51,256 nt of DNA, from assembly GCA_903900335.1 (NCBI GenBank), contig CAIUMP010000040.1, positions 1 through 51,256 of the forward strand. Reading direction: 5' to 3'. Within the stretch, counting starts at the first letter, position 1; every line of letters starts with the position of its first letter. The DNA comes from an uncultured Ignavibacteriota bacterium. Lineage in GTDB: Bacteria; Bacteroidota; Ignavibacteria; Palsa-1295. Position numbers and translations under genes: made by a program. The notes beneath the pieces are model-generated. The model saw nothing but the letters and a program-made list of their open reading frames with translations, was not told where the DNA came from and made no database searches. This document shows positions 25,465 to 39,761 of the stretch, piece by piece.

Positions 25465-25716
25465 GTGCAAGACATCTCCACCCCGCCCGACACCACCAGC
25501 CGGTACGATAAGCAACGCTTCCTTTACGCGCTGCTATTCTTCGTCGGCTCACTCGTCGCGTTCGTCGGCTGGTTCGTCGATCTGAAGCATCTCGAACGCC
25601 TTCCATTCCTTTTCAAACACGCCGCGATCATCGCAGCCATCGGACATGCGGTGCAGGTTGTCGCGCTGTTGGGTTTTCTGTTATTGCCGGATTGGGTGGA
25701 GGAGGAGGCAGAGTAG
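25465..25716 (+). CDS. Small two-helix membrane protein directly after nuoH
   Basis: 83 residues with a GTG start nine bases after the nuoH stop. Two hydrophobic segments (FLYALLFFVGSLVAFVGWFV and HAAIIAAIGHAVQVVALLGFLLL, each read within limits) are joined by a basic loop, and the tail is acidic (VEEEAE). I do not recognise a family. Same strand and tight spacing make co-transcription with nuoH likely, so an accessory or assembly role in complex I is possible; chance neighbourhood is also possible. Confidence 0.55.
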   Translation: MQDISTPPDTTSRYDKQRFLYALLFFVGSLVAFVGWFVDLKHLERLPFLFKHAAIIAAIGHAVQVVALLGFLLLPDWVEEEAE

Positions 25717-25771
25717 GGTTCGCCGCAATGCTTTTGAAGTACTTCATGTTCGTTTCGGCAAGGAAATCATT

Positions 25772-25930
25772 ATGACGAACCCATACGTAATCTATTTTGT
25801 GCTCATCCCAATTCTGTGCTCTGCGACTGTGCTCTTTTCCTTTACGATTGGAAAAGTGATGGGGTGCCGCGAGGCTACCATGAGCCACGACGCGAAAGCG
25901 TATGAAAAGCACGGCCTCGCCTCGCACTAA
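25772..25930 (+). CDS. Tiny single-helix membrane protein
   Basis: 52 residues from an ATG with an AAGGAA ribosome site eight bases upstream. One hydrophobic segment (YVIYFVLIPILCSATVLFSF) is followed by GKVMGCREATMSHDAKAYEKH, a short soluble tail. It is 55 bases after the two-helix gene and could be on the same transcript. No family recognised. Confidence 0.5.
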   Translation: MTNPYVIYFVLIPILCSATVLFSFTIGKVMGCREATMSHDAKAYEKHGLASH

Positions 25931-25957
25931 CGGAATGAGGCCGCGAGATTCACGAGC

Positions 25958-25968
25958 GGGGGGGGGGG
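25958..25968 (+). repeat. 11-base poly-G tract
   Basis: Eleven consecutive G, within an otherwise ordinary stretch, 43 bases before the ATG of the next gene. A short frame from an ATG at 25935 passes through it and, with eleven G, stops at 25986. With ten or thirteen G it would stay open and join the ATG at 26011 in frame. It could be phase-variable, or a sequencing or assembly error. Confidence 0.8.
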
Positions 25969-26010
25969 CGGCGAACCACCATCCTTGATTTGGTAAATCT
26001 AATTGATAAA

Positions 26011-26343
26011 ATGGAACATCATGTCTTGATAGAATCCGAGATTGAAAATACTTGGATCGTATTTCAAGTCGCGGATAATGGATCACGAATCGCGGTAGGT
26101 AGTGTAAGGCTGAACGATGCTGGGTCATGGCAACTCAAGCGGAATGAACCGCTGATTACACAATGGTACAATTCCATGACTCTTCGTCAGGACGTTGATC
26201 CGGTGAGAGCACTCACGCTGGAACTGCAATCACTATTTGGCAATACTCCGTTCGACTTCGAACTATCAGACGGTAAACTAGAGGATGTTGAGAGTTATTT
26301 AATTAAACTTCGTAGAGCGACCTCTGCTGGACTCAGCGAATGA
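26011..26343 (+). CDS. Hypothetical soluble protein, acidic
   Basis: 110 residues, no signal peptide and no membrane segment. It begins MEHHVLIESEIENTWIVFQ and has LKRNEPLITQWYNS in the middle and a helical C-terminus (LEDVESYLIKLRRATSA). The base composition here is more A+T-rich than the nuo genes. The ATG at 26011 is preferred to the TTG at 25990. No family recognised; it begins just after a poly-G tract. Confidence 0.5.
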   Translation: MEHHVLIESEIENTWIVFQVADNGSRIAVGSVRLNDAGSWQLKRNEPLITQWYNSMTLRQDVDPVRALTLELQSLFGNTPFDFELSDGKLEDVESYLIKLRRATSAGLSE

Positions 26344-26370
26344 ATGTGAAGCTGAACGACGAATTCAAAT

Positions 26371-26664
26371 TCACATTTTAGTTTCACGCATACTATTCCG
26401 AATCCGATGGTACGTCCACGGATTGACCGTACCTAAGTCTATTACACGCCACTTAAAAATTGCAGCGAGCAATAGAACGGAGAGCATGAACAGAACGTCT
26501 GGTGGGTGATTGCCACTTTCAGTAATCCGATTTAATGTACCAACCGCAAAAGCGATGAACAGTATCCAGGAAATCACATTTAATGTCCCTCTGCTCGATT
26601 TCTTATATTTTTCGAAACCGGAAGCGAAGAATGGAATTGCGAGCAAAATCAGTGTGATTATCAT
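26371..26664 (-). CDS. Small three-helix membrane protein
   Basis: 97 residues. Hydrophobic segments MIITLILLAIPFFASGF, VISWILFIAFAVGTL and DVLFMLSVLLLAAIFKW suggest three helices, with a basic C-terminus (YHRIRNSMRETKM). The family is not recognised. A TAATTTTG promoter element ends four bases before its ATG, so it is probably transcribed on its own from a near-leaderless message. It runs opposite to the nuo genes. Confidence 0.55.
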   Translation of the reverse strand: MIITLILLAIPFFASGFEKYKKSSRGTLNVISWILFIAFAVGTLNRITESGNHPPDVLFMLSVLLLAAIFKWRVIDLGTVNPWTYHRIRNSMRETKM

Positions 26665-26668
26665 ATTG

Positions 26669-26676
26669 CAAAATTA
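26669..26676 (-). promoter_or_regulatory. -7 promoter element abutting an ATG
   Basis: On the minus strand TAATTTTG fits TAnnTTTG and is followed by CAAT and then ATG, the same four-base spacing as at 17933-17945. No clear TTTG is seen at the -33 position. Confidence 0.5.
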
Positions 26677-26757
26677 AGAATAGCAGCAGTAGACTTGGCA
26701 GAATGTCGATGACTGAAAGTCCTTTGTGACGCGAATGGAGAGTATAAACGTGCACTG

Positions 26758-27027
26758 CTAAAAGTGCTCGACTTCGAGGGGAGTATTAGCTACATTGACG
26801 TCCAGAGGCTCGTTCGAAATGCTCACTTCCCCTTCGAGACGAATTGGATCCCAGATTGTACGGTGTTCTCGGTCTGCCTTTATGAACTCATCGCTTGGAG
26901 GTTTAACAATTGACACAATGCGGACATTACGAGCGTCCTGCTGAAAAATGTAACCTTCAGCGGCGATTCCAGCAAGAATGACCGCGATAAGTGTGAGAAT
27001 TATATTCGTGTAAAGTTGTGTTTTCAT
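26758..27027 (-). CDS. Small membrane-anchored hypothetical protein
   Basis: 89 residues. One N-terminal hydrophobic helix (NIILTLIAVILAGIAAEGYIF) is followed by a hydrophilic tail with VRIVSIVKPPSDEF, then EGEVSISNEPLDVNVANTPLEVEHF, read in parts. It is likely anchored in the membrane with the tail outside. Tail segments of this sort occur in short Bacteroidota hypothetical proteins, but I cannot name a family. The ATG at 27027 partly overlaps an ATG on the opposite strand at 27026. Confidence 0.45.
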   Translation of the reverse strand: MKTQLYTNIILTLIAVILAGIAAEGYIFQQDARNVRIVSIVKPPSDEFIKADREHRTIWDPIRLEGEVSISNEPLDVNVANTPLEVEHF

Positions 27028-27073
27028 GGTGATGTTTTTAGACTGCTTCAATTCAAAACAAATTTTGCGAGCC

Positions 27074-27472
27074 ATGATTCTGGCTCCGGTACTATTTAAT
27101 TGCTGCGGATGCAACAAACATGAACAGGTGCGGTCTTCGAAGGACAGCCTTGCTGGTGAACGGCGGTATGATTCATTGCAGCGCGCGGAGCAGCGCGCGG
27201 AAGATTCGATTTATCGCTTGGATACATTTGCGCTCGGCGAGAGGGTAGTATACTTGAAGGATGGTTCACATGATTACCACCGTGCTACCTGTAAAGTGTT
27301 TCCTGCTGATTCTCTCCGTGTATACGGCAATCTCAACAAAAAAACAACAATAGCCGGTGCACGTTATCGAGGATTGACAGAGTGTCGGCTTTGCACGCCT
27401 GACTCGGCAAATCGCGAACGGGATGAACATTGGAAAATCGATGATCCTGATGCCGAGGAGGATGACAATTAG
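27074..27472 (+). CDS. Lipoprotein with a Cys/His metal-site-like motif
   Basis: About 132 residues. MILAPVLFNCCGCNKHEQ gives a short signal with cysteines for lipidation, then a charged linker. The C-terminal half, VVYLKDGSHDYHRATCKVF ... ARYRGLTECRLCTPD, has one His-x3-Cys and one Cys-x2-Cys, like the small metal-binding motif (Y-H-x-x-x-C ... G-x-x-x-C-x-x-C) found at the ends of some nucleases and surface proteins. An ATG at 27026 would add 16 residues. A near-consensus AAATTTTG precedes the 27074 ATG. Metal binding is inferred only from pattern. Confidence 0.5.
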   Translation: MILAPVLFNCCGCNKHEQVRSSKDSLAGERRYDSLQRAEQRAEDSIYRLDTFALGERVVYLKDGSHDYHRATCKVFPADSLRVYGNLNKKTTIAGARYRGLTECRLCTPDSANRERDEHWKIDDPDAEEDDN

Positions 27473-27609
27473 CGTTGTTCCTATGGCTACGAGGAATATG
27501 CGAGTCTACAGACATTGAGTGGACCTTCGAGCGAAGTTACTGCCCTGCGAATGGCAACCCACCCCCTGCATTTTCCCTCGGATGCAGGAAACCGAATTCT
27601 CCCGCGTTG

Positions 27610-27948
27610 TCAGTTGGTTGTGTCAACGATAATGCGTTTGCCTGTTTCGTCATCCCAAAACGTGTCTGGAAGCAGTCGCCGACCACCGAATGGGAACTCT
27701 CGAACGCCTTCGATGGAGTCGCGAATTGTGCGTTGGTAACGCAAGGCCGCGATGAGATTATGGGTCTTTGTTGCCGCGTCCGACCGCTCGATCTCGATAA
27801 CCATGTTATGATCATGCGAAATAGCCCAGATTGCACTATCGCTGATCCAGCCTGCATCCACTGCGCGAAGGCGTTCGTACCATTTGCGCTGCTCGCTTAC
27901 ACATCCGGTTAGAAGTAATAGGGCGAGCAGAATCATTGATTTGTTCAT
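27610..27948 (-). CDS. Small lipoprotein, paralogue A
   Basis: 112 residues. The lipobox LLLTGC is followed by VSEQRKWYERLRAVDAGWISDSAIW, a stretch that recurs in the next gene (C-V-S-E, W-Y-x-R-L-x-A-V, I-x-D-S-x-I). The tail has GVREFPFGGRRLLPDTFW. A GGAG ribosome site lies just before the ATG. It is the downstream member of a tandem lipoprotein pair; no family recognised. The antisense frame 27475-27912 is a shadow. Confidence 0.6.
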   Translation of the reverse strand: MNKSMILLALLLLTGCVSEQRKWYERLRAVDAGWISDSAIWAISHDHNMVIEIERSDAATKTHNLIAALRYQRTIRDSIEGVREFPFGGRRLLPDTFWDDETGKRIIVDTTN

Positions 27949-27969
27949 GTCACACTCCTTTCATTGTAC

Positions 27970-28227
27970 TTAGTTGTGAGAGAGATAATAGGTTCTCATT
28001 GAATCCTGCCGACGCATCCTCTCGACGTTAGCTTGTGCGCTGGCCCGGTTCATGGAATCCAGTTGTTCGATGTAGCGGACAAAGTTCGTGTCCGCTGACA
28101 ACACCCGAATGGTGCTGTCATTGATGTGTCCTCCCTCAACGGCTTTGAGGCGATCATACCACGTCTGTTTTTCGCTGACACATCCGGCAATGAAGAATAG
28201 CGTGAGTAGAATAGTTGCTCGTTTCAT
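27970..28227 (-). CDS. Small lipoprotein, paralogue B
   Basis: 85 residues. The lipobox FIAGC is followed by VSEKQTWYDRLKAVEGGHINDSTIR, closely matching the downstream lipoprotein. The rest is helical and charged (DSMNRASAQANVERMRRQDSMRTYY). A strong AGGAGG site precedes the ATG. The pair probably arose by duplication, and it ends shortly before paralogue A starts, 21 bases apart. Confidence 0.6.
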   Translation of the reverse strand: MKRATILLTLFFIAGCVSEKQTWYDRLKAVEGGHINDSTIRVLSADTNFVRYIEQLDSMNRASAQANVERMRRQDSMRTYYLSHN

Positions 28228-28257
28228 CTTGCCCTCCTGTTCTGTTTTCGATTGTTA

Positions 28258-28500
28258 TTAGTGTCTTCTAATTCGTGTTCGGTATGGATCAGTCGATCCG
28301 CGTTTACCGGTGTATGGATTGCTATTGCCCCGTGAACTCCAGTTATTAGCGCGCGAGTGATCGGGGGCGGTGCGAAAATAAGGTAAGACGTAAACCCCCG
28401 TACTGCGGCGTTGGTAGCCGTGAGTGTGAACCCATTGCGCGGTCGCTCCAGAGGCGATAACCGCGAGTAAGAAGAGCGTGAGTGAGATCGTGTGTTTCAT
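28258..28500 (-). CDS. Short secreted basic protein
   Basis: 80 residues. A signal peptide (ISLTLFLLAVIASGATA, cut before QWVHTHG) is followed by a short basic, aromatic, Gly/Ser-rich mature part (YQRRSTGVYVLPYFRTAPD, then GRNSNPYTGKRGSTDPYRT in part). Similar short YTGKRGSTDPYRTR-type tails occur in small exported proteins. Its function is unknown. The ATG is preceded by a GGACAGG purine stretch, and it leads the lipoprotein pair on the same strand. Confidence 0.5.
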   Translation of the reverse strand: MKHTISLTLFLLAVIASGATAQWVHTHGYQRRSTGVYVLPYFRTAPDHSRANNWSSRGNSNPYTGKRGSTDPYRTRIRRH

Positions 28501-28616
28501 CCTGTCCCCGTTTTGCTACATGATGAAGATAGACTCACTTCCCATGCCAACGCCGAGACAGGGAACGTCGCGCGCGCGGTGCAGTCAGTGGGGGCAATAA
28601 AATCACCTTCCGGGAA

Positions 28617-28656
28617 GCAACCCCTGCTAACTTGTGTTAGCAGGGGTTGCCATTTT
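28617..28656 (+). terminator. Strong intrinsic-terminator-like hairpin before nuoI
   Basis: A perfect 15-bp stem (28617-28631 with 28636-28650) with a TTGT loop, then CATTTTTT. It has the form of a Rho-independent terminator on the plus strand and sits immediately before nuoI, in the same direction. The 3' arm overlaps the TTG at 28647 that would otherwise be a possible nuoI start. Confidence 0.75.
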
Positions 28657-28664
28657 TTCTAAAC

Positions 28665-29393
28665 GTGGGTAGATACTTCTCGGATATTGGACGCGCAGTC
28701 AGTTCAGCCGCACAGGGGCTGCGGATCGTCATGCGCCATCTCGTCCGAAAGAAGGTGACGCGGCAGTATCCAGAGCTGAAGAACGAGTACATTCTCCCTG
28801 AGCGAGCGCGCAATCGGCTATATGTCAACATGGACGACTGCATCGGGTGCGACAAGTGCGCCCGCGCATGCCCGGTCGATTGTATCACGATTGACACCGT
28901 GAAGGCCGTCCCTGGTGAAGACCTCGGCATCACGACGAAGAACGCGAAGAAGAAGGCGCTCTGGGTGACGAAGTTCGACATCGACATGGCGAAGTGCTGC
29001 TATTGCTCGCTCTGCGTCTGGCCGTGCCCTACGGAGTGTATCGTCATGACGGAAGTGTTCGAGTTCTCCGAGACCAAGCGCGAGAACCTCATTTATCACT
29101 ATGCCACGATGGATGAGACTGAGGCGCAAACGCATGTTGATAATTGGAAAGTGTGGGAAGTTGAAGCAAATGCACAACGCGCTAAGCAAGCCGCTGAACG
29201 CTCTGCGAAAGTGGCGGAGCAGCAGTCCGCCGCACCGACGGCTGAGGCAACGATGAAGCCACCGCCGTTTATGGTTAAGCAATCGGGCGCAATTCCACCA
29301 CCACCGGGAGCGATCAAACCACCACCGGGAGCGATCAAACCACCGCCATTCAAGATGCCGCCACCTCCACCAAAAACGGAGGGGGCTGCCTAA
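28665..29393 (+). CDS. nuoI: NADH-quinone oxidoreductase subunit I with Pro-rich tail
   Basis: About 242 residues from a GTG at 28665. Two [4Fe-4S] motifs are clear: C59-IGC-DKC-ARACP and C111-CYC-SLC-VWPCP, ferredoxin-like clusters N6a and N6b of the peripheral arm. The usual protein is about 160-200 residues; here a ~50-residue tail (about 195-242) is rich in Pro and Ala with PPPPGAIKPPP. The GTG is chosen because the TTG at 28647 lies in a hairpin arm; an ATG at 28731 would cut the N-terminal helix. The nuoJ start overlaps its stop. Confidence 0.9.
   Translation: MGRYFSDIGRAVSSAAQGLRIVMRHLVRKKVTRQYPELKNEYILPERARNRLYVNMDDCIGCDKCARACPVDCITIDTVKAVPGEDLGITTKNAKKKALWVTKFDIDMAKCCYCSLCVWPCPTECIVMTEVFEFSETKRENLIYHYATMDETEAQTHVDNWKVWEVEANAQRAKQAAERSAKVAEQQSAAPTAEATMKPPPFMVKQSGAIPPPPGAIKPPPGAIKPPPFKMPPPPPKTEGAA
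29298..29339 (+). repeat. Exact 21-bp tandem duplication inside nuoI
   Basis: Two identical 21-base units (29298-29318 and 29319-29339) encode PPPGAIK twice in the Pro-rich tail of NuoI. It keeps the reading frame. Confidence 0.85.
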
Positions 29394-30007
29394 TGCCAAC
29401 GCTCTTCGACATATTCTTCTATCTTTTCGCGGCGACGATTGTCGTCTCGGCGGTGCTCGTCTGCTTCTCGCACAACATTGTTCACGCGGCGTTCTCGCTG
29501 CTGTTTACGTTCATGGCCGTTGCGGGTGTGTACGTGTTGCTCGGAGCGGACTTTCTCGCGGTTAGTCAAATCTTGATTTATGTCGGTGGCATACTAGTGC
29601 TGTTGGTCTTTGGTGTGATGCTGACGAACCGTGTGACGAATATTGATATTCGTGCTGCCGTGCGTGCGCGGATTCCCGCGTTCGTTTTATGCTCGGGTTT
29701 ATTGACCGTGCTGATCTTGCTTCTTACAACGGGCCATTGGATCTCTTACAAAGATCAACCATGGACGAATACTCCCTGGAATAAGAATGCAGTAGAGCAA
29801 GCACTTGCGCCAGACCAAGGGACGGAGCAGGAGAAACACGATAAGTCTGGTAGCCATGGTACAGCACCGGAAATCGGGAAGCTGATGCTCACTGATTATC
29901 TGCTCCCGTTCGAACTTGTGTCAGTCGTGTTGCTCGTTGCCCTTCTCGGCGCGGCTAGTATTGCACGCCAAGACCCCGTGCCAGCAAAACAGGAGGGGGG
30001 AGCATGA
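29393..30007 (+). CDS. nuoJ: NADH-quinone oxidoreductase subunit J
   Basis: 204 residues, five membrane helices. The ADFLAVSQILIYVGGILVLLVFGVM segment near 52-76 includes the pi-bulge helix involved in coupling, and LLPFELVSVVLLVALLGA is the last helix. A hydrophilic loop of about 40 residues between helices 4 and 5 is longer than usual. Its ATG overlaps the nuoI stop (TAATG). Confidence 0.93.
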   Translation: MPTLFDIFFYLFAATIVVSAVLVCFSHNIVHAAFSLLFTFMAVAGVYVLLGADFLAVSQILIYVGGILVLLVFGVMLTNRVTNIDIRAAVRARIPAFVLCSGLLTVLILLLTTGHWISYKDQPWTNTPWNKNAVEQALAPDQGTEQEKHDKSGSHGTAPEIGKLMLTDYLLPFELVSVVLLVALLGAASIARQDPVPAKQEGGA

Positions 30008-30321
30008 GTCTTTTCCCGGTTGGATTGTATCACTTCCTCATTCTCGCCGCTGTCCTCTTCGTGCTCGGCCTCTTTACAATGCTTACGCGGAAGAACGCCA
30101 TCGCGGTGCTGATGGGCATCGAGCTTATTCTCAATGCGGCGAATATCAACTTCGTCGCGTTCACGCGATATGGCGGCGTGAATCTCGGTGGACAGATGAC
30201 GGCGATCTTCGTGATCGTCATGGCGGCGTGCGAGGCGGCGGTGGCGCTTGCGATCGTGTTAAATCTGTATCGCCGCTCCCAGACCGTCTCCGTTGTCGAT
30301 GCAAACAAACTGCGGGACTGA
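30004..30321 (+). CDS. nuoK: NADH-quinone oxidoreductase subunit K
   Basis: 105 residues, three helices. GIELILNAANINFVAF near residue 38-53 and MAACEAAVALAIVL near 75-88 hold the two conserved membrane glutamates of the NuoK proton channel. Its ATG overlaps the nuoJ stop (ATGA). Confidence 0.94.
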   Translation: MSLFPVGLYHFLILAAVLFVLGLFTMLTRKNAIAVLMGIELILNAANINFVAFTRYGGVNLGGQMTAIFVIVMAACEAAVALAIVLNLYRRSQTVSVVDANKLRD

Positions 30322-30327
30322 CGCACG

Positions 30328-32613
30328 ATGAACGATCTCATTCTCATATCGCTCGTCGCGCTTGGACTACCGCTGGTGGCCTTTGTTCTTGTTATCTTTA
30401 ATCAAAAGGCACTTGCAGATAGAGCACATCTCATTTCTACTCCGGCGATAGCCTTCTCGCTGGTGCTCTCGCTCTATGTTGCATGGATGAAGTTGAAAGG
30501 CTTGCCGCTCACGACTTTCGAGTGGAGCATGGATTGGATTCAGTTCGGAACGCTGCCAGGCTATGGTCCGCTGAAAATAACGGTTGGTGTGTTGCTCGAT
30601 AACATCACGGCAATACTTATGGTGGTCGTTACGAGCGTCAGTTTCCTCGTCCACATTTTCTCAAGCGAGTATATGAAGCTCGATTCGAGGTACGCTCGCT
30701 ACTTCGCCTATCTGGGGCTCTTCACCGCGGCGATGATGGGCGTAATACTCGTCAATAACTTCTTCGGTCTCTACATGTGCTGGGAGTTGGTCGGCTTCAC
30801 CAGCTACCTACTCATTGGTCACTGGTATGAACAAACGGGGCCGCAGCTTGCATCGAAGAAGGCATTCATCACGAACCGCATCGGCGATGCGGTGATGTGG
30901 ATGGGTATCCTGCTTCTTTTCACGGAATTCCACACATTCAACTACCGCGAGATATTTGCGCTGATCTATCAAGGATTACCGATCACATTTAGCATATTTG
31001 GGCTTTCACCCGAGACGACCTTGACCGTTGCGGGATTACTACTCTTCTCCGGAGCCATTGCCAAGAGTGCACAATTCCCACTCCATGTGTGGCTTCCCGA
31101 TGCGATGGAAGGTCCAACACCCGTCTCCGCACTCATTCACGCAGCTACGATGGTTGCCGCTGGCGTCTATTTCACTGCACGAATCTTCCCGCTCTTGACT
31201 GGGGACGCGATGCTCATCGTCTCGTGCATCGGCGGCTTCACGGCGTTGCTTGCCGCAACAATCGCAATCACGCAAACCGACATCAAGCGCGTGCTCGCTT
31301 ACTCGACAGTCTCCCAGCTTGGGTTGATGATAATGTCCATCGGTGCAGGCGCTGTCGCGGCCGGCCTATTCCATCTGGTAACGCACGCGGCATTTAAGGC
31401 ATGTCTCTTCCTTGGTGCTGGATCGGTTATTCATGCGATTCATCGCGCCCAGCATGGCACGGCGGATAGCGAATTGGATGCGCAGGATATGCGGAACATG
31501 GGGGGGCTACTGAAGAAGATGCCGATCACAGGATGGTCGTTTATCGTGGCGACGCTTGCCATATCAGGCCTTCCTCTTTTAGCGGGGTTCATGTCGAAGG
31601 ACGAGATCCTTGCGGGAGTGACGGCGTATGGGAAACTGCAATCTACGATGCAGCACTCGGTGGAATCGCAGCCGTTTTACATTGACCATAATGCCATCGC
31701 GATACTACTTCCCTTCGTTGGAGGCATCGTAACGATCCTAACCGCATTCTACATGTGGCGGCAGGTGTTCCTCGTGTTCTTTGGCGTGCCGAGGGAGGTA
31801 TCTCTCTTCGAAAGGATCAGAGAATCATCGCGGGTGATGACGGTTCCGATCGTTGTTCTCGCAGCGCTCTGCTTATGGATATGGTATGGCCCAAATCCGC
31901 TTGCACCGGAGAGTGGCTGGTTCTTGAAAAAGTGGGTGAGGACTTCGGCGCAAGTCATTCCGCCACAAACTGCGCCTACCTACGCCATCGTGCCGCAGGT
32001 GCTTGCCACCGATGATGCTACGCACGAGGAACCCGAGGTATCACCCGCGTCTTCCCCGATTCCCTCATCACAGACAACCAGCACGCTGGACCGGTTACCA
32101 CAAATGCCGCATCAACTTGCCCTGGAGGCGGAGAGGCATACGGTAGCGCCGATAGTCGGAGAGGTCGCAATAGGATCTGCGCTCTTCGGATTGTTGCTCG
32201 CCTGGTTATTGTACATGCTTCGTCCAGGCGTCGCTTCAACGATCGGGCGAAAGCTCGGGCCGCTCTACCGATTCAGCTTGAGAGGGTGGTATATTGACGA
32301 GATCTATGAGATTGCAGTAGTAGCTCCATTCCTGTTCGTGGCGCGCGGACTGGCATGGGTTGACGATAGAGTGGTCGACGGGTTAGTGAATGCAACCGCC
32401 CGGACGACTGTTCTTCTTTCGCGTGTTGTCGGTTGGTTCGATCGCTATATTGTGGATGGCATTGTTACTCTTGTCGGAGCAACGGTGCAGTTTCTGGGTC
32501 TGATGACCCGATCGCTCCAGACCGGCCGCATTCAAACGTATCTTGCGTGGGTAGTTGCGAGTGTTGTCACATTATTCGTGGTAATTCATTACGTAGTGCT
32601 GGCCAAGCCGTGA
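30328..32613 (+). CDS. nuoL: NADH-quinone oxidoreductase subunit L
   Basis: 761 residues, an antiporter-like proton-pumping subunit. The core shows MCWELVGFTSYLLIG with the channel glutamate, SAQFPLHVWLPDAMEGPTPVSALIHAATMV with the channel lysine region, and TQTDIKRVLAYSTVSQLG. The C-terminal lateral helix region follows. Residues ~540-605 hold a hydrophilic Pro/Ser/Thr-rich insert (HEEPEVSPASSPIPSSQTTS) that I do not expect in the family. It begins six bases after nuoK. It is followed by a protease gene, not by nuoM. Confidence 0.94.
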   Translation: MNDLILISLVALGLPLVAFVLVIFNQKALADRAHLISTPAIAFSLVLSLYVAWMKLKGLPLTTFEWSMDWIQFGTLPGYGPLKITVGVLLDNITAILMVVVTSVSFLVHIFSSEYMKLDSRYARYFAYLGLFTAAMMGVILVNNFFGLYMCWELVGFTSYLLIGHWYEQTGPQLASKKAFITNRIGDAVMWMGILLLFTEFHTFNYREIFALIYQGLPITFSIFGLSPETTLTVAGLLLFSGAIAKSAQFPLHVWLPDAMEGPTPVSALIHAATMVAAGVYFTARIFPLLTGDAMLIVSCIGGFTALLAATIAITQTDIKRVLAYSTVSQLGLMIMSIGAGAVAAGLFHLVTHAAFKACLFLGAGSVIHAIHRAQHGTADSELDAQDMRNMGGLLKKMPITGWSFIVATLAISGLPLLAGFMSKDEILAGVTAYGKLQSTMQHSVESQPFYIDHNAIAILLPFVGGIVTILTAFYMWRQVFLVFFGVPREVSLFERIRESSRVMTVPIVVLAALCLWIWYGPNPLAPESGWFLKKWVRTSAQVIPPQTAPTYAIVPQVLATDDATHEEPEVSPASSPIPSSQTTSTLDRLPQMPHQLALEAERHTVAPIVGEVAIGSALFGLLLAWLLYMLRPGVASTIGRKLGPLYRFSLRGWYIDEIYEIAVVAPFLFVARGLAWVDDRVVDGLVNATARTTVLLSRVVGWFDRYIVDGIVTLVGATVQFLGLMTRSLQTGRIQTYLAWVVASVVTLFVVIHYVVLAKP

Positions 32614-32653
32614 GGGTTTGCGTCCGCTCATTCTTTTTGATTTAGGATTCATC

Positions 32654-35600
32654 ATGCAAAGCTGTATTCGCCTCCTCGTTTTGGCGTTGGTCTTCTCGTT
32701 TCCGGTAGTGTCTGTAGCAGGTACGCCTTCGACTCCGTCTCAGCCCGGAACCTCGTCCTCGCTGACTCCCTCTGCACCCGGTGTAGTCTATGTAAAGTTA
32801 AGAGCTGGATCGACCGTGTTCGGAGCCGCAGCTACTAAGGGGTCCCAGATTCAATCGACCGGGACGGGGAAGTTCGACAGAACACTAAAGGCGCTGAAGA
32901 TGAGGTTGGTCGTTCCATTTGACGCGGACGCCCCGAAGGATGAGATCACGAGAGAGTATGGAATCGACCGGATGTTCTGCATCTATTATGACAATCGCAG
33001 CGTCGACCCACATGCCGCTTTACAAATGCTGCTGGCAACCGGGGAGGTCGAGTGTGGTTCGCCTCGGTATCTGTTCCCACTTTCGAAGAAGACGAACGAC
33101 CCGCAACTGAATTCACAATGGGGTCTGACGAACATAAATGTCTTTAGCGCATGGGATGTCACGACAGGAGATCCATCGGTGATCGTTGCCGACGTGGATG
33201 ACGGCTTTAACACGAAGCATGAAGATCTGAAGAATGCCATCACTGCAGGTTGGGATCTGGTTGGTGCTGTGAGCACGGCAAGCGGCGCAGCGTTCCAACC
33301 CGATAACGATCCGACTCCGGACAATACACAGAATAGCCACGGTTCCCACACGGCAGGCTGCATTGCTGCCACTGGAGATAACAATCTTGGAATCGCTGGC
33401 GTCGCCTATGGTTGTAAGATTTTGGCGATCAAGGCGGCCGGCAGCGATGCTGACAACACGGGCGGCATTTCCGCAGGATACGAAGGCATCCACTACGCAA
33501 CGACGCACGGAGCAAAGGTGATCAACTGCTCATGGGGTGGACCGATCTCTGGAAGTAGTGCAGGTTTTGCAAACACGGTACTTGCAGAGGCGACTGCCCG
33601 CAATGTGCTGGTTGTTGCTTCGGCGGGCAATGGCACTCCAACCGGGCTGGATCTGGCCAAGAATCCTCAGTACCCCGCAACTGGCCCGGGCGTGCTTTCC
33701 GTCGGAGCATCAGATCAATCGGACGGTCCAGCGTCCTTCTCCTACTTCGGGCATCCGGTTAGCGTGTGGGCTCCGGGTACAGGAATCCTGAGTTGCAGTT
33801 ATCCAGGCAATACCTCGTACAACGCCGAAGATGGGACGAGCTTCTCCTCGCCGCTCACGGCTGGCGTCGCCGCGCTGGTGGTCTCGATGCATCCGACGTG
33901 GCCGCCACGGTTCGTTGCCAGACAAATTATTCAGACGTGCGACAACGTTGTCAGACCGGGCGACCAATACAACTATTGGGGCCGTGTAAATGCCGGTAGT
34001 GCTCTCACTTCCCCAAGTGGGCCTGGGCTTATGATCATGAGCTACACGTTGGATGGCGTGGCCTCCGATTCTCTTGGCGCTGTTGGTAAGGTATCCGACT
34101 TGAAGGTGACGTTCAAGAATGTTGTCTCGACCGGATCAAACCTGACTGCGACGATCCTCACGAGGACAGGCTACACTGCCGGCGCAACACCGACCGTTAC
34201 GATCGGTTCGATGGTCGTCGATGCAAGTTTCCAGGCGGATTTCCAGATCACTCGCACGGGTACCTACAGCGAAGGGAATATGCCGGTTCGCTTTTATGTA
34301 ACCGATGGTGCAAATTATTCAGACACACTCGACCTGCTGCTTCCACTAAAGAGGACTCCGGGCTTCGTGTTGGAACGCCCCGCTCCGTTCGGTCAGAGTA
34401 TTAAACGGGTTTCGAACACGGCAGCGTGGGCTACATTTGGTTTTGCCCAGACCGGGTTCGTGACAGTATCGCAGTACGCACGTGAGGGCAAAGGCGTGTG
34501 GTCAGACACAACAACACTGAGCGATGGGCTTGCTGCTGCGTATGATGTCGAAGCAATTGACTCAGTTTCGGCCTACTTTGGAACTGGCTCGAACAGCGTC
34601 GCAGAAGTAATATTTACGCATGATGGCGGGACAACCTTTGACTTTACGGACTGCAGCTCGTTCACACCATTTGTCAACACGATCCACTTCTTCGATGCGA
34701 ATAATGGCATCCTCATAGGAGATCCCATCACGAGCAGCACTGCCAAACAGCCGTGGGGGATTGGCGTTACAACGGATGCGGGCGTCTCGTGGAATCAGAT
34801 TCCTTCTCCGCCAATGAATTCGAAAGTTGGCGAGGCGAGTTGGAATAACTCCGCAACGTGGGTTGGCGATAACGGTTGGTTCGGTTCGAACAGCGCTCGC
34901 ATTTGGCACACGACGAACCGCGGTGTTTCCTGGACTTCCGCGACAACCTCAACCTACCTCCATGCCCTTGGGATCGGATTCGATGATGACGCGATCCATG
35001 GATTCGCTGTGTTCCGCCGGGTGGCGAATTCCTCCGGGACTGTTACTGGGGTGAAGGGGATCATGGGCTCCGCCGACGGTGGCACAACATGGAAAGTCGT
35101 GAAGATGCCGGCCGCTGGGATGACCCCGGGTGCAGTTCGGTTTGTACCGGGTTCCCATACTGCGATCCTTACTTCCGACAGCGGTATTTGGCGAACCGCG
35201 GATTTCGGTGCAACCTGGACGCCTATCGGAATGCCCGTGACGTATGTGCCGATGGATGGAGACCTGAGCATCTACTCAGCCCAGGGCACGACGACAGCCA
35301 GCTTCGTTTCGAACGGGGAGGGAATTGCAACCTATCAGGAAGTCATTTCCGGTTTGAATGCGACGCCAGGTTCACTCTCATTTGGTAATGTTATCGTAGG
35401 TCAGGACAGCTCGCTTTCCACCACCGTGAAGAACGGCGGCACCTCGTCGCTCACGATCAACAGCATCAGCGTAAGCCCTGCTGGGTCGGCGTTCTTGAAT
35501 GACACGTCCAGCGCGAGCGTCAAGACACCGAAGACATTAGCAGGTGGCGCATCGTTTGTGCAGATCGTAACATTCCGACCAGTAGCGGCGGGTCAGCAAT

Positions 35601-35965
35601 CTGCGAATCTTGTCTTCACGCTTTCCGATGGTACGACATTACAGGTGCCGTTAAGTGGAGTTGGCAAGCCGTTAGGTGGAGTCGCGCAGCAGATAGCCAA
35701 CGGTGGGCTTATTCTCAATGTCTCGACTAATCCATTCCATGGTGTGACGGGAATTGAGTATGAAATACCACATAGCGAAGTCATTCGCCTGAGCGTGTTC
35801 GATGCACTGGGACGCGAAGTTGCGGTGCTCGCAAACGGCGCGAGATCGGAGGGGTCATACTCTGCGTCTTTCGATGCCCGCAATCTTCCGGCCGGAGCGT
35901 ACTACGTAACGCTACTGACAGAGTCTGGCTTGCGGATGAACAAGGCGATTACGTTGTTGAGGTAA
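32654..35965 (+). CDS. T9SS-sorted subtilisin-like serine protease, between nuoL and nuoM
   Basis: About 1103 residues. A signal peptide (LLVLALVFSFPVVSVAG) and a propeptide-like region precede an S8 domain with catalytic Asp182 (ADVDDGF), His229 (NSHGSHTAG) and Ser396 (GTSFSSPLTAG); NCSWGG is the oxyanion-side motif. Then come beta-rich segments with GVSWNQI and GTTWKVV repeats, a HYDIN/choice-of-anchor-like domain at ~900-1010 (LSFGNVIVGQDSSLSTTV), and a T9SS sorting domain (STNPFHGVTGIEYE, LPAGAYYVTLLTE). It should act outside the cell on proteins. The ATG at 32654 has an AGGA site; the frame back to 32618 has no start logic. It is co-directional with the nuo genes, 40 bases after nuoL. 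Confidence 0.9.
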   Translation: MQSCIRLLVLALVFSFPVVSVAGTPSTPSQPGTSSSLTPSAPGVVYVKLRAGSTVFGAAATKGSQIQSTGTGKFDRTLKALKMRLVVPFDADAPKDEITREYGIDRMFCIYYDNRSVDPHAALQMLLATGEVECGSPRYLFPLSKKTNDPQLNSQWGLTNINVFSAWDVTTGDPSVIVADVDDGFNTKHEDLKNAITAGWDLVGAVSTASGAAFQPDNDPTPDNTQNSHGSHTAGCIAATGDNNLGIAGVAYGCKILAIKAAGSDADNTGGISAGYEGIHYATTHGAKVINCSWGGPISGSSAGFANTVLAEATARNVLVVASAGNGTPTGLDLAKNPQYPATGPGVLSVGASDQSDGPASFSYFGHPVSVWAPGTGILSCSYPGNTSYNAEDGTSFSSPLTAGVAALVVSMHPTWPPRFVARQIIQTCDNVVRPGDQYNYWGRVNAGSALTSPSGPGLMIMSYTLDGVASDSLGAVGKVSDLKVTFKNVVSTGSNLTATILTRTGYTAGATPTVTIGSMVVDASFQADFQITRTGTYSEGNMPVRFYVTDGANYSDTLDLLLPLKRTPGFVLERPAPFGQSIKRVSNTAAWATFGFAQTGFVTVSQYAREGKGVWSDTTTLSDGLAAAYDVEAIDSVSAYFGTGSNSVAEVIFTHDGGTTFDFTDCSSFTPFVNTIHFFDANNGILIGDPITSSTAKQPWGIGVTTDAGVSWNQIPSPPMNSKVGEASWNNSATWVGDNGWFGSNSARIWHTTNRGVSWTSATTSTYLHALGIGFDDDAIHGFAVFRRVANSSGTVTGVKGIMGSADGGTTWKVVKMPAAGMTPGAVRFVPGSHTAILTSDSGIWRTADFGATWTPIGMPVTYVPMDGDLSIYSAQGTTTASFVSNGEGIATYQEVISGLNATPGSLSFGNVIVGQDSSLSTTVKNGGTSSLTINSISVSPAGSAFLNDTSSASVKTPKTLAGGASFVQIVTFRPVAAGQQSANLVFTLSDGTTLQVPLSGVGKPLGGVAQQIANGGLILNVSTNPFHGVTGIEYEIPHSEVIRLSVFDALGREVAVLANGARSEGSYSASFDARNLPAGAYYVTLLTESGLRMNKAITLLR

Positions 35966-35978
35966 GAAGAGCGTGAAC

Positions 35979-36010
35979 TGGAAGCATCGCGCAATTCAGA
36001 GATGCTTCCA
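35979..36010 (+). terminator. Hairpin after the subtilase gene
   Basis: TGGAAGCATC pairs with GATGCTTCCA around a 12-base loop, 13 bases after the stop. No T-run follows, so termination may be weak or Rho-linked; it may also protect the end of the message. It separates the subtilase from nuoM. Confidence 0.45.
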
Positions 36011-36062: not shown

Positions 36063-37715
36063 ATGATCTCACAAATTCCACTTTTGAGTCTGCTTACATT
36101 CCTGCCACTGGCAGGAATGTTCGTTCTTGCCTTCGTCCCCAAGGATAAGGTTCTCGTTCTGCGCGGTGTGACGGTTGCGATCACGCTTCTGCAGCTTGCC
36201 CTTGCGGTTGTCGTGTGGCTCAATTTTGACACCAGCCTTGCCGGGGTGAATAACCCGAAGACCTTCCAGTTTGTCGAGCGGTTTTCGTGGGTGAGGATCT
36301 CTGGAGTAGGGATCTTTGGAAATGTGGCGATCGATTACTTCATGGGGCTCGATGGATTGTCGGTCACCATGATCCTTCTCACGACACTGATCACCGCGAT
36401 CGCTTCGGTGGCAAGCTTTTCTGTCAACCGCAATGTCAAAGGCTATTTCTTGATGTTCCTTCTGCTGGATGTCGGAATGATCGGGACCTTCTGCGCGCTG
36501 GACTTCTTCATGTTCTACGTCTTCTGGGAGTTGATGCTGCTGCCGATGTATTTCCTCATCGGAATCTGGGGCGGGGCACGACGTGAATACGCGGCACTCA
36601 AGTTCTTCATCTACACGCTGCTGGGCTCGGTGGTAATGCTGCTTGTCATGATCGGCCTATCCTATTCAACACAAGTAATGCTCTTCTCACCGGATACCCA
36701 TTCGGTGATACTGAATCCGTTGACGCATAAGCCTGAAATGTACCATACGTTCAGTATGCTACAAATGATGAATCCGGCCGCGATGGTAAAGGATAGTATC
36801 TTCTTCGGTCTGGGTACCGATTGGCGCTACATCGGGTTTCTCGGGCTCTTTTTTGCCTTCGCGATCAAGATTCCAATGTTCCCCTTTCATACCTGGCTTC
36901 CGGATGCGCACGTGGAAGCGCCGACGGCGATCTCTGTAATCCTCGCTGGAGTGTTGTTGAAGATGGGCGGCTACGCGATACTCCGGCTGTGTTTCGGTAT
37001 CTTCCCAGAGATCGCCTTTGCTCTAAGCTGGTATATCGCGATGTTCGGCGTAATTAACATTATCTATGGGGCATTCTGCGCGATGGCGCAGAGCGATTTC
37101 AAACGACTCATCGCATACAGCTCCATCAGCCACATGGGTTTTGTGTTACTTGGAATTGCATCGCTGAACTCACAGGGAATGATGGGGGCGATTCTGCAAA
37201 TGTTCAACCATGGCATGATCAGTGCAATGCTCTTCCTGCTCGTGGGAGTCTTGTACGATCGCACACAACTGCGCGGCATACTGGAGTTCGGCGGATTGGC
37301 GAATCAGATGCCGAAGTATTTTGCGCTGATCGTGATCGCGATGTTCGCAGCGCTCGGACTGCCAGGAATGTCGCTCTTCATTTCCGAAGCATTTGTCTTT
37401 ATCGGCGCCTTCCAGGCATGGCAGATGTGGGCCATCATTGCTGCGCTCGGTATTGTGCTTACGGCGGCGTATTATCTCTGGACCCTCCAGCGGATGTTCT
37501 TCGGTGCGTTACCGGAAAGATGGAATGCGTTGACAGACGTGACCCCACGCGAGCTTGTGACGCTCATCCCGCTGGCGGGGATCATCATTGCGCTTGGTAT
37601 CTATCCAGGGCCGCTGCTTGATCTTACCACGTGCAGTGTGAATCAGTTGGTAACATTCGTCCATAGCCACGGGGTGATACCATCCGTGGTTCACGGAGCG
37701 GCAATTGTGAAATAA
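36063..37715 (+). CDS. nuoM: NADH-quinone oxidoreductase subunit M
   Basis: 550 residues, about fourteen helices. VFWELMLLPMYFLIGIWGG holds the channel glutamate, KIPMFPFHTWLPDAHVEAPTAISVILAGVLLKMGGY the central lysine region, and AMAQSDFKRLIAYSSISHMGFV a further conserved helix. It is an antiporter-like proton pump. It follows the subtilase by 97 bases and precedes nuoN by 12. Confidence 0.95.
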   Translation: MISQIPLLSLLTFLPLAGMFVLAFVPKDKVLVLRGVTVAITLLQLALAVVVWLNFDTSLAGVNNPKTFQFVERFSWVRISGVGIFGNVAIDYFMGLDGLSVTMILLTTLITAIASVASFSVNRNVKGYFLMFLLLDVGMIGTFCALDFFMFYVFWELMLLPMYFLIGIWGGARREYAALKFFIYTLLGSVVMLLVMIGLSYSTQVMLFSPDTHSVILNPLTHKPEMYHTFSMLQMMNPAAMVKDSIFFGLGTDWRYIGFLGLFFAFAIKIPMFPFHTWLPDAHVEAPTAISVILAGVLLKMGGYAILRLCFGIFPEIAFALSWYIAMFGVINIIYGAFCAMAQSDFKRLIAYSSISHMGFVLLGIASLNSQGMMGAILQMFNHGMISAMLFLLVGVLYDRTQLRGILEFGGLANQMPKYFALIVIAMFAALGLPGMSLFISEAFVFIGAFQAWQMWAIIAALGIVLTAAYYLWTLQRMFFGALPERWNALTDVTPRELVTLIPLAGIIIALGIYPGPLLDLTTCSVNQLVTFVHSHGVIPSVVHGAAIVK

Positions 37716-37727
37716 GGGAGCACACGA

Positions 37728-39428
37728 ATGCCTCCGAAACCACCGCCGGATCTCTCCACAATCGCTCACGCTGTACAGCAGTACACGGCGATCAGCATCA
37801 ATCACTTCTTACCTGAAGTCTTCCTTGTTTGTGGCTTCTTGCTCTCCATTCTACTGGATGTTGCGACGCGGAAGGGCAGGTCAAAGCGAGTCTCCGTCTA
37901 CTTTGCCGTTGCGGTGCTGGCACTTTCAGGTGCGATGGCGGCAACACAGTGGCACACCTTCGATCCGCTGCATCCAAAGGATCTGAAAGGTGGCTCACCG
38001 CTTTTCCCTTATACTCAATCGCTTTTCGCGCCGGATGTTCATAATGCGGAAATGCAAAACGGCTATGGGATGGCAGTGGTTGATAACTTCGCGGTATTCT
38101 TCAAGTTGTTCATTTCGGTGACGGGCATTCTTGTGCTCCTGATGTCACTGGTCTCTCGCGAATTGCAAGCGCGCTCATCAAGGATGGGCGAATTTACATC
38201 ACTAATTCTAGGGATGTGCATTGGTCTGTATCTGATGCCGGCCTCGATGGATCTGTTGACGATGTATGTCTCGATGGAGCTTGTCTCCATCACTGGTTAC
38301 ATACTGGCCGGTTTTTCGAAGGACGCCGAGCACAGCGCCGAGGCGTCCCTGAAATATATACTCTTCGGCGCGTTGGCCTCCGGGATGATGATCTATGGCT
38401 TCTCCCTCTTCTATGGGCTGACGGGTACGACAAGTATTATAGGCATTCGTAATGTACTGGCTCTTTCCCCCGCGACACACACCGGTGCGAATCTCTTCAT
38501 ACTATGGAGCGCCACGGTGCTGGCTCTTGTCGGGATGGGATACAAGATCAGCGCGGTGCCGTTTCATATGTGGACGCCGGACGTCTACGAAGGTGCACCG
38601 GCACCAGTCACTGCGTTCCTTTCAGTGGCTTCGAAGGCCGCAGGATTCGGGTTGCTCATTCGTTTTCTGCTTTTCATTTTTCCTGACAGTCGCGGTGCTG
38701 GATTACCACTGCTGGACTGGCACATCTTCGTCGCCGCTATAGCGGCAATAACGATGACCGTTGGTAATTTCGCCGCACTGCTTCAATCAAATGTACGGCG
38801 TATGTTGGCCTACAGCTCGATCGCCCATGCGGGCTATATGCTTGCTGCGCTCGCTGTCGGGGGTGCGCCGGGTGTGGTGGCTATCATGGTCTATCTTGGT
38901 ACGTATCTCTTCATGCAGCTTGGCGCGTTCTATGCCGTAATGCTGATCGAGAACAAACTGGGCACGGAGGAATTGGATGACTATCGTGGTCTTGTTGCGC
39001 GCGCACCCCTCGTATGTGTGGGGCTTCTGATATTCCTCATATCGCTAACCGGTATTCCTCTTACTTCTGGCTTCGTTGGCAAGTTCTATCTATTTACTGC
39101 TCTGCTCACGCCGGATCATTCAACGAATACTATTCCGTGGTTATGGTTGGCGGTCGTTGCAATTGGCAATGCGATCATTTCGCTATATTACTACATGCGT
39201 GTTGCGGGTGCGATGTTCCTGAAGAGGCCACTACGAGATCTTGCGTTAGAGCGCGTGGGAGAGCTTGGCGCGATTCCATCTGCGGCTATGGCTTTTTCCT
39301 GGCCGACGATTGTTCTCCTCCTTGTATTCATCACTCCAGTCTTAGTGCTGGGTGTGTATTTTCAGCCACTGGTGGATTTTGCAAGTGGTGTAGTTCGATT
39401 TTTCAGTTTCACCGAAATACGATATTAA
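37728..39428 (+). CDS. nuoN: NADH-quinone oxidoreductase subunit N
   Basis: 566 residues, about fourteen helices. MYVSMELVSITGYILAGF holds the channel glutamate, SAVPFHMWTPDVYEGAPAPVTAFLSVASKAAGF the Lys-containing half-helix, and LQSNVRRMLAYSSIAHAGYMLAAL a later helix, the hallmark pattern of NuoN. An AAGGGAG ribosome site lies before the ATG. The rhodanese gene follows after three bases. Confidence 0.95.
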   Translation: MPPKPPPDLSTIAHAVQQYTAISINHFLPEVFLVCGFLLSILLDVATRKGRSKRVSVYFAVAVLALSGAMAATQWHTFDPLHPKDLKGGSPLFPYTQSLFAPDVHNAEMQNGYGMAVVDNFAVFFKLFISVTGILVLLMSLVSRELQARSSRMGEFTSLILGMCIGLYLMPASMDLLTMYVSMELVSITGYILAGFSKDAEHSAEASLKYILFGALASGMMIYGFSLFYGLTGTTSIIGIRNVLALSPATHTGANLFILWSATVLALVGMGYKISAVPFHMWTPDVYEGAPAPVTAFLSVASKAAGFGLLIRFLLFIFPDSRGAGLPLLDWHIFVAAIAAITMTVGNFAALLQSNVRRMLAYSSIAHAGYMLAALAVGGAPGVVAIMVYLGTYLFMQLGAFYAVMLIENKLGTEELDDYRGLVARAPLVCVGLLIFLISLTGIPLTSGFVGKFYLFTALLTPDHSTNTIPWLWLAVVAIGNAIISLYYYMRVAGAMFLKRPLRDLALERVGELGAIPSAAMAFSWPTIVLLLVFITPVLVLGVYFQPLVDFASGVVRFFSFTEIRY

Positions 39429-39431
39429 GCA

Positions 39432-39761
39432 ATGAGCCTCGAGATACCGTTTGATATGACCGTTCAGGAGTTAAAGCAGTGGCAGGATGAAAAAAAGAAA
39501 TTCGTGCTCGTGGATGTGCGCGAACCAGCGGAATACAAGACCGCGAACATCGGTGGGAAGTTGATCCCGCTCAACTCGCTGCCACAACACTTAGCCGAAC
39601 TCGATCCTGAAGCGGAGATGGTAGTTCACTGTAAATTGGGTGGCCGTAGCGGCATGGCAGTAGAATTCCTTCGCAGGAATGGATTCCCCAAAGCGCGTAA
39701 TCTCAAGGGCGGGATCATCGCCTGGAGCAGGGAGATCGACCCCAGCGTGCCGCAGTATTAA
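39432..39761 (+). CDS. Single-domain rhodanese sulfurtransferase
   Basis: 109 residues, one rhodanese domain. VLVDVREPAEYKTANI is the entry motif, and C67 in HCKLGGRSG is the active-site persulfide cysteine. Such proteins carry sulfane sulfur for cofactor synthesis or redox signalling. Three bases after nuoN, it is probably in the same transcript; a link to Fe-S supply for the Nuo clusters is inference. Confidence 0.88.
   Translation: MSLEIPFDMTVQELKQWQDEKKKFVLVDVREPAEYKTANIGGKLIPLNSLPQHLAELDPEAEMVVHCKLGGRSGMAVEFLRRNGFPKARNLKGGIIAWSREIDPSVPQY

Follow-up and report, generated by a model that had tools for sequence, protein, structure and literature searches.

A subtilase gene with a type IX sorting domain between nuoL and nuoM in a family of Ignavibacteria

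A gene encoding a subtilisin-like protease with a type IX secretion system (T9SS) sorting tail was identified between nuoL and nuoM of an uncultured Ignavibacteriota bacterium, within a stretch of 51,256 nucleotides (contig CAIUMP010000040.1, hereafter the window). The protease is located at the same site in 11 of the 12 family genomes encoding a canonical nuoM, therefore its placement is not a matter of chance. In our opinion, the gene is probably an old, vertically inherited passenger of the nuo operon (operon hitch-hiking), and the exported enzyme is selected for a function of its own and does not act on complex I. The protein as such is of an ordinary kind; what is unusual is its location, which is old and stable. 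In the literature library searched, the search listings gave no description of this arrangement.

The protease and its predicted export

The protease gene extends over positions 32654..35965 on the forward strand of the window, from an ATG start to the stop codon, and encodes 1103 amino acids. An in-frame TTG at 32618, upstream of the ATG, is a possible alternative start. The upstream neighbour nuoL (30328..32613; TIGR01974, 555.5 bits) and the downstream neighbour nuoM (36063..37715; TIGR01972, 555.7 bits) are encoded on the same strand and both score over the cut-offs of their models. The gap between the nuoL stop (32613) and the protease ATG (32654) is 40 bases, and that between the protease stop (35965) and the nuoM start (36063) is 97 bases, exact to the base as given in a preliminary description of this locus.

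The domains are arranged as putative signal peptide, pro-region, Peptidase_S8 catalytic domain (33176..33964), Ig-like domain, an all-beta BNR/Sortilin/Ycf48-like (propeller-like) region (34391..35344, approximate limits, about residues 580-897), choice-of-anchor-D domain (42.3 bits against a cut-off of 45 for choice_anch_D) and C-terminal T9SS type A sorting domain (35726..35938), all on the forward strand. The catalytic domain is a member of PF00082 (2.5e-44; 152.1 bits, cut-off 21.8). The triad D182, H229 and S396, correctly recognized in the preliminary description as that of a secreted-type protease, was invariant in all 20 aligned subtilases, as was the oxyanion N326. The predicted structure (mean pLDDT 72, pTM 0.53) matched subtilisins, Vpr and fervidolysin in the PDB. 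These properties are those of an active-type subtilisin-like enzyme, which would be proteolytic. More specific identities were rejected: the protease scored 155.2 with the T7SS mycosin model (TIGR03921), for which the equivalog cut-off is 278.75, and the scores for mycosin, PrtP, PatA and QhpE were all under their cut-offs. The fold, triad, oxyanion Asn and pro-region are common to the subtilisin family S8 (PF00082; subtilisin BPN', thermitase, fervidolysin), while the protease of the window differs by the additional Ig, propeller-like and T9SS domains and by being encoded inside a nuo operon.

The T9SS tail, also recognized beforehand, was confirmed with TIGR04183 (28.3 bits, cut-off 23), and a match to Por_Secre_tail (4.3e-4) was below the Pfam cut-off. 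TIGR04183 was above its cut-off in seven of the eight nuo-linked copies scanned, the exception being that of genome G005 (21.5 against 23). The N-terminus appears hydrophobic by eye, and a helix at residues 5-13 was predicted with low confidence. SprA, the T9SS component that was searched, is present in the genome (772 bits, cut-off 200). The protein is predicted to cross the inner membrane by means of the putative signal peptide and the outer membrane through the type IX system. At least 150 TIGR04183 sites, all above the cut-off, are present in the genome (150 of 277 candidates were scored), so a gene for T9SS cargo as such is common here, and eight further S8 matches are located outside nuo. 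As in other T9SS type A cargo of Bacteroidota, the sorting domain scores over the TIGR04183 cut-off and SprA is encoded in the genome; the protease differs from such cargo in that, judged from the gene spacing, its expression is expected to go along with that of complex I genes.

Conservation, ancestry and loss at the nuoL-nuoM junction

The taxonomic order as sampled consists of one family with 13 genomes. Twelve of them encode a canonical nuoM, and none was detected in the thirteenth, G009, which is 67% complete. The comparison of the nuoL-nuoM junction called for in the preliminary description revealed that the gene order is conserved: the protease was found between nuoL and nuoM, on the same strand, in four genera, namely in G000-G005 (g1), G007 and G011 (g2), G008 and G012 (g3) and G010 (g5). 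Eight of these genomes (G000, G001, G003, G004, G005, G007, G008 and G011) have the two junctions on a single contig. Because contigs end there, the junctions are interrupted in the other three of the 11 carriers; both were found on two contigs in G002 and G012, and the nuoM side alone in G010.

Outside the family, the protease was missing at the junction in all 18 class loci inspected, which came from eight other families (30 further class genomes were left out) and in which nuoL and nuoM are 35-193 bases apart between match ends. None of the 78 named loci outside the family showed the protease at this junction; nuoL lies within 323 bases in 73 of them, and two end too close to nuoM to tell. 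In the remaining three (L087, L095 and L126), 1.4-1.8 kb of other ORFs separate nuoL and nuoM. By eye, the inserts of L087 and L095 resemble a complete or partial gene pair of the nucleotidyltransferase/HEPN type.

Phylogenetic analysis of 54 subtilase domains placed the nuo-linked copies and a clade of six g1 paralogues in one group (SH-aLRT 99), with the class relatives outside this group; some nodes of the tree were only modestly supported (82-92). Five sequences were left out of the tree (one partial sequence each of L070 and L067, and the distant L006, L007 and L008 of the window genome), and its tally counts the nuo-linked copy of G012 (L073) as a paralogue; nuoL lies directly before this copy. 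The proteases of g2 and g3 are 34-39% identical to the window copy and the g1 paralogue is 35-36% identical to it. Since the g2 and g3 copies are no closer to the window copy than the g1 paralogue, orthology rests on position together with the tree. The propeller-like region could be aligned among the g1 copies and is absent from the g2 and g3 copies (680-810 amino acids) and from the partial g5 copy.

Outside the operon, genes are common to close relatives only. None was common to the window and any relative compared, or to g1 and the other genera (six genomes upstream and 11 downstream, 1-5 kb each). Since the genes outside the operon are not shared, the conserved order inside it does not merely reflect a lack of time. 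We read this as a single ancestral insertion between nuoL and nuoM, before the genera split, followed by vertical inheritance.

The exception among the 12 genomes is G006, where nuoL-nuoM-nuoN is kept and nuoL adjoins nuoM with no protease gene between them. In a tree of NuoL+M+N, G006 was nested inside g1, together with G003 and G005 (support 95/97). Shortly before nuoM, the nuoL-nuoM gap of G006 reads TGAQITRSITILR-stop, which matches the last 13 codons of the protease (compare the g1 protease ends SGAHETRAITILP and SGLRMNKAITLLR). In an in-frame protein comparison, 0 of 20,000 shuffles of the gap scored as well; this test used three forward frames, 13-mers before a stop and single-base shuffles, and was made after the match had been seen. 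Plain nucleotide alignment of the gap with the protease genes did not beat the shuffles, of which 17 (G005), 47 (G003) and 187 (G004) out of 200 were as good. Because G006 is nested in g1 and a 13-codon relic is left, the loss is secondary and primary absence is ruled out; the protease was most likely lost by internal deletion. This loss suggests that complex I does not need the protease. The sequence just after nuoL in G006 resembles the start of the G005 protease, a likeness seen by eye and not counted as evidence.

Between G001 and G002 the protease displayed a dN of 0.214 and a dS of 2.51, with 71% amino-acid identity over 823 codons, compared with a dN of 0.077 and a dS of 1.02 for nuoM; dS is near saturation in most pairs, and the other protease pairs were saturated. 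The dN of the protease was about 2.8 times that of nuoM in this pair and about 7 times in the pair G008-G012. These values indicate that the protease is under purifying selection, yet diverges more quickly than the neighbouring genes, as one would expect for a protein at the cell surface.

The nuo gene run and its other additions

In the window, nuoB-C-D-H and nuoI-J-K-L are separated by about 3.2 kb; the protease, nuoM-N and a rhodanese gene follow in this order. The genes nuoI, nuoJ and nuoK are located at 28665..30321 and nuoN at 37728..39428, all on the forward strand, and nuoN adjoins nuoM in the relatives too. The names nuoB, C, D, H, J, K and N were assigned by reading, not by subfamily cut-off (J and K from position and sequence), and the best models for nuoI score below their cut-offs. 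The nuoF gene is located elsewhere in this genome, outside the nuo run. The order B-C-D-H-I-J-K-L-M-N is common to canonical nuo operons of Bacteroidota, from which the present run differs by a small membrane protein gene after nuoH, the protease after nuoL and the rhodanese gene after nuoN. The protease is thus one of three family-linked additions to the operon.

The distance from nuoL to the protease is short throughout the family. The two genes overlap by four bases in G008 (ATGA), and stop and start overlap in G012 (TAATG). The gap is 1 base in G011, 6 in G004, 8 in G005, 18 in G003, 19 in G007, 31 in G001, 40 in the window and 41 in G002; on the nuoL side, the gaps of G002, G011 and G012 were read by eye from the DNA, as were the start codons of G005, G007 and G008. 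From the protease stop to the nuoM start there are 18 to 158 bases across the family. This spacing suggests that nuoL, the protease and nuoM are on one transcript, so that the protease is probably co-transcribed with nuo, and the junctions of g2 and g3 suggest translational coupling of nuoL and the protease.

A perfect inverted repeat of 15 bases, with a loop of 4 bases and T6 behind it, was observed at 28617-28658, a few bases before the GTG start of nuoI at 28665. This terminator-like hairpin may be a terminator or attenuator inside the nuo run, at which the transcript may begin or be attenuated. A nine-base perfect inverted repeat (GGAAGCATC / GATGCTTCC) without a T run closely follows the protease stop, at 35980-36009, and is not obviously present in relatives. 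Scans for sigma-70-type promoters and terminators between 30000 and 39800 yielded about as many sites as in shuffled sequences.

The small gene between nuoH and nuoI (25465..25716, forward strand) encodes a membrane-type protein of 83 amino acids with two hydrophobic stretches. It is located at this position in the window and in five other family genomes whose stretches cover the gap. The protein was found in 11 of the 13 family genomes, the two misses being 67%-complete genomes, and in none of 48 class genomes; nothing over cut-off was obtained in Pfam or NCBIfam. We regard it as a candidate for an accessory subunit of complex I or for a factor in its assembly. The rhodanese gene (39432..39761, forward strand; PF00581) directly follows nuoN, as it does in all 11 family genomes with sequence there. 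No such gene was observed in four outgroup regions, each of which leaves 1.8 kb or more for it.

Between the small protein gene and nuoI (25717-28650), the first part of the sequence is low in G+C. Three minus-strand ORFs were seen by eye in this stretch, two similar small lipoprotein-like ones and one of a secreted type (27610-27948, 27970-28227 and 28258-28500). Comparison of the stretch with 12 relatives gave a single weak match of 79 bases. At locus L039 of G001, there is between nuoH and nuoI a gene pair, presumably PIN/antitoxin-like, next to which the 5' end of nuoI is partially duplicated; this suggests that the spot takes inserts.

Why the protease stays in the operon

According to the passenger reading that we favour, the protease would have entered the nuo operon once, between nuoL and nuoM, before the genera of the family split, and would have been inherited vertically from then on. 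It would be translated from nuo mRNA, and in several species the start and stop codons at its junctions abut or overlap. After export via its putative signal peptide and the T9SS, the protein would act on the cell surface or beyond it. The gene would be kept because the protease itself is selected, and steady expression from the nuo transcript would keep its place; use of this transcript for expression level or for regulation would both fit. Operon hitch-hiking, in which functionally unrelated genes are kept for shared expression, is discussed in PMC6327494. The present locus has in common with it the stable residence of an unrelated gene within an operon, but here the passenger is predicted to be exported and its gene lies between those for two subunits of a single membrane complex.

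The preliminary description had set a chance hitch-hiker against a co-regulated exported protein. Conserved order and close spacing agree with both, and hitch-hiking and co-regulation are not mutually exclusive; what fell was the recent neutral insertion. Its expectation that conserved order would support a link held as far as the order is concerned, while the relic in G006 speaks against a need of complex I for the protease.

Functional co-regulation would mean that extracellular digestion feeds amino-acid catabolism, that complex I oxidises the NADH and that the T9SS uses the proton motive force, all being switched together. The conserved placement, the tight spacing with junctions resembling translational coupling, the preserved triad and export tail and the presence of SprA are all in agreement with this. 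However, the eight S8 matches outside nuo and the many other T9SS cargoes indicate that such a link is not general, and G006 lost its copy; we therefore regard co-regulation as rather unlikely. More doubtful still is a wider version, a feeding-and-respiration unit in which translation of the surface protease from nuo mRNA makes extracellular protein digestion, sulfur handling (rhodanese) and electron transport vary together, and in which the small nuoH-nuoI protein would serve complex I as a new, lineage-specific subunit or assembly factor.

Related subtilases might also have been inserted independently at the nuoL-nuoM junction in g1 and in g2, g3 and g5, since the architectures differ (the propeller-like region occurs only in g1), identity is low and the three named loci with other genes between nuoL and nuoM show that the junction can take inserts. 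However, the nuo-linked copies share one supported group as well as orientation and spacing, and one insertion with one loss is simpler, which makes independent insertions very improbable. Direct action of the protease in complex I assembly or turnover, for which the operon position speaks, is even harder to accept: the T9SS tail would direct the protease outside, G006 keeps nuoL-nuoM-nuoN without it, and its dN exceeds that of nuoM in both pairs compared. A subunit or assembly factor would be present wherever the operon is, whereas the protease is reduced to a relic in G006 and absent at the 18 class loci. A recent neutral insertion or an assembly artefact limited to this genome, for which no point in favour was found, is ruled out for practical purposes by the relatives carrying the protease at the same site.

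The small protein encoded between nuoH and nuoI is worth testing as an accessory subunit of complex I. For the protease, the natural loss with a relic offers a clean test between a function in the complex, co-regulation and hitch-hiking for expression. Functional predictions draw widely on operon position, and in this family a gene with no obvious biochemical connection has persisted over a long period of evolution between two genes encoding complex I subunits.
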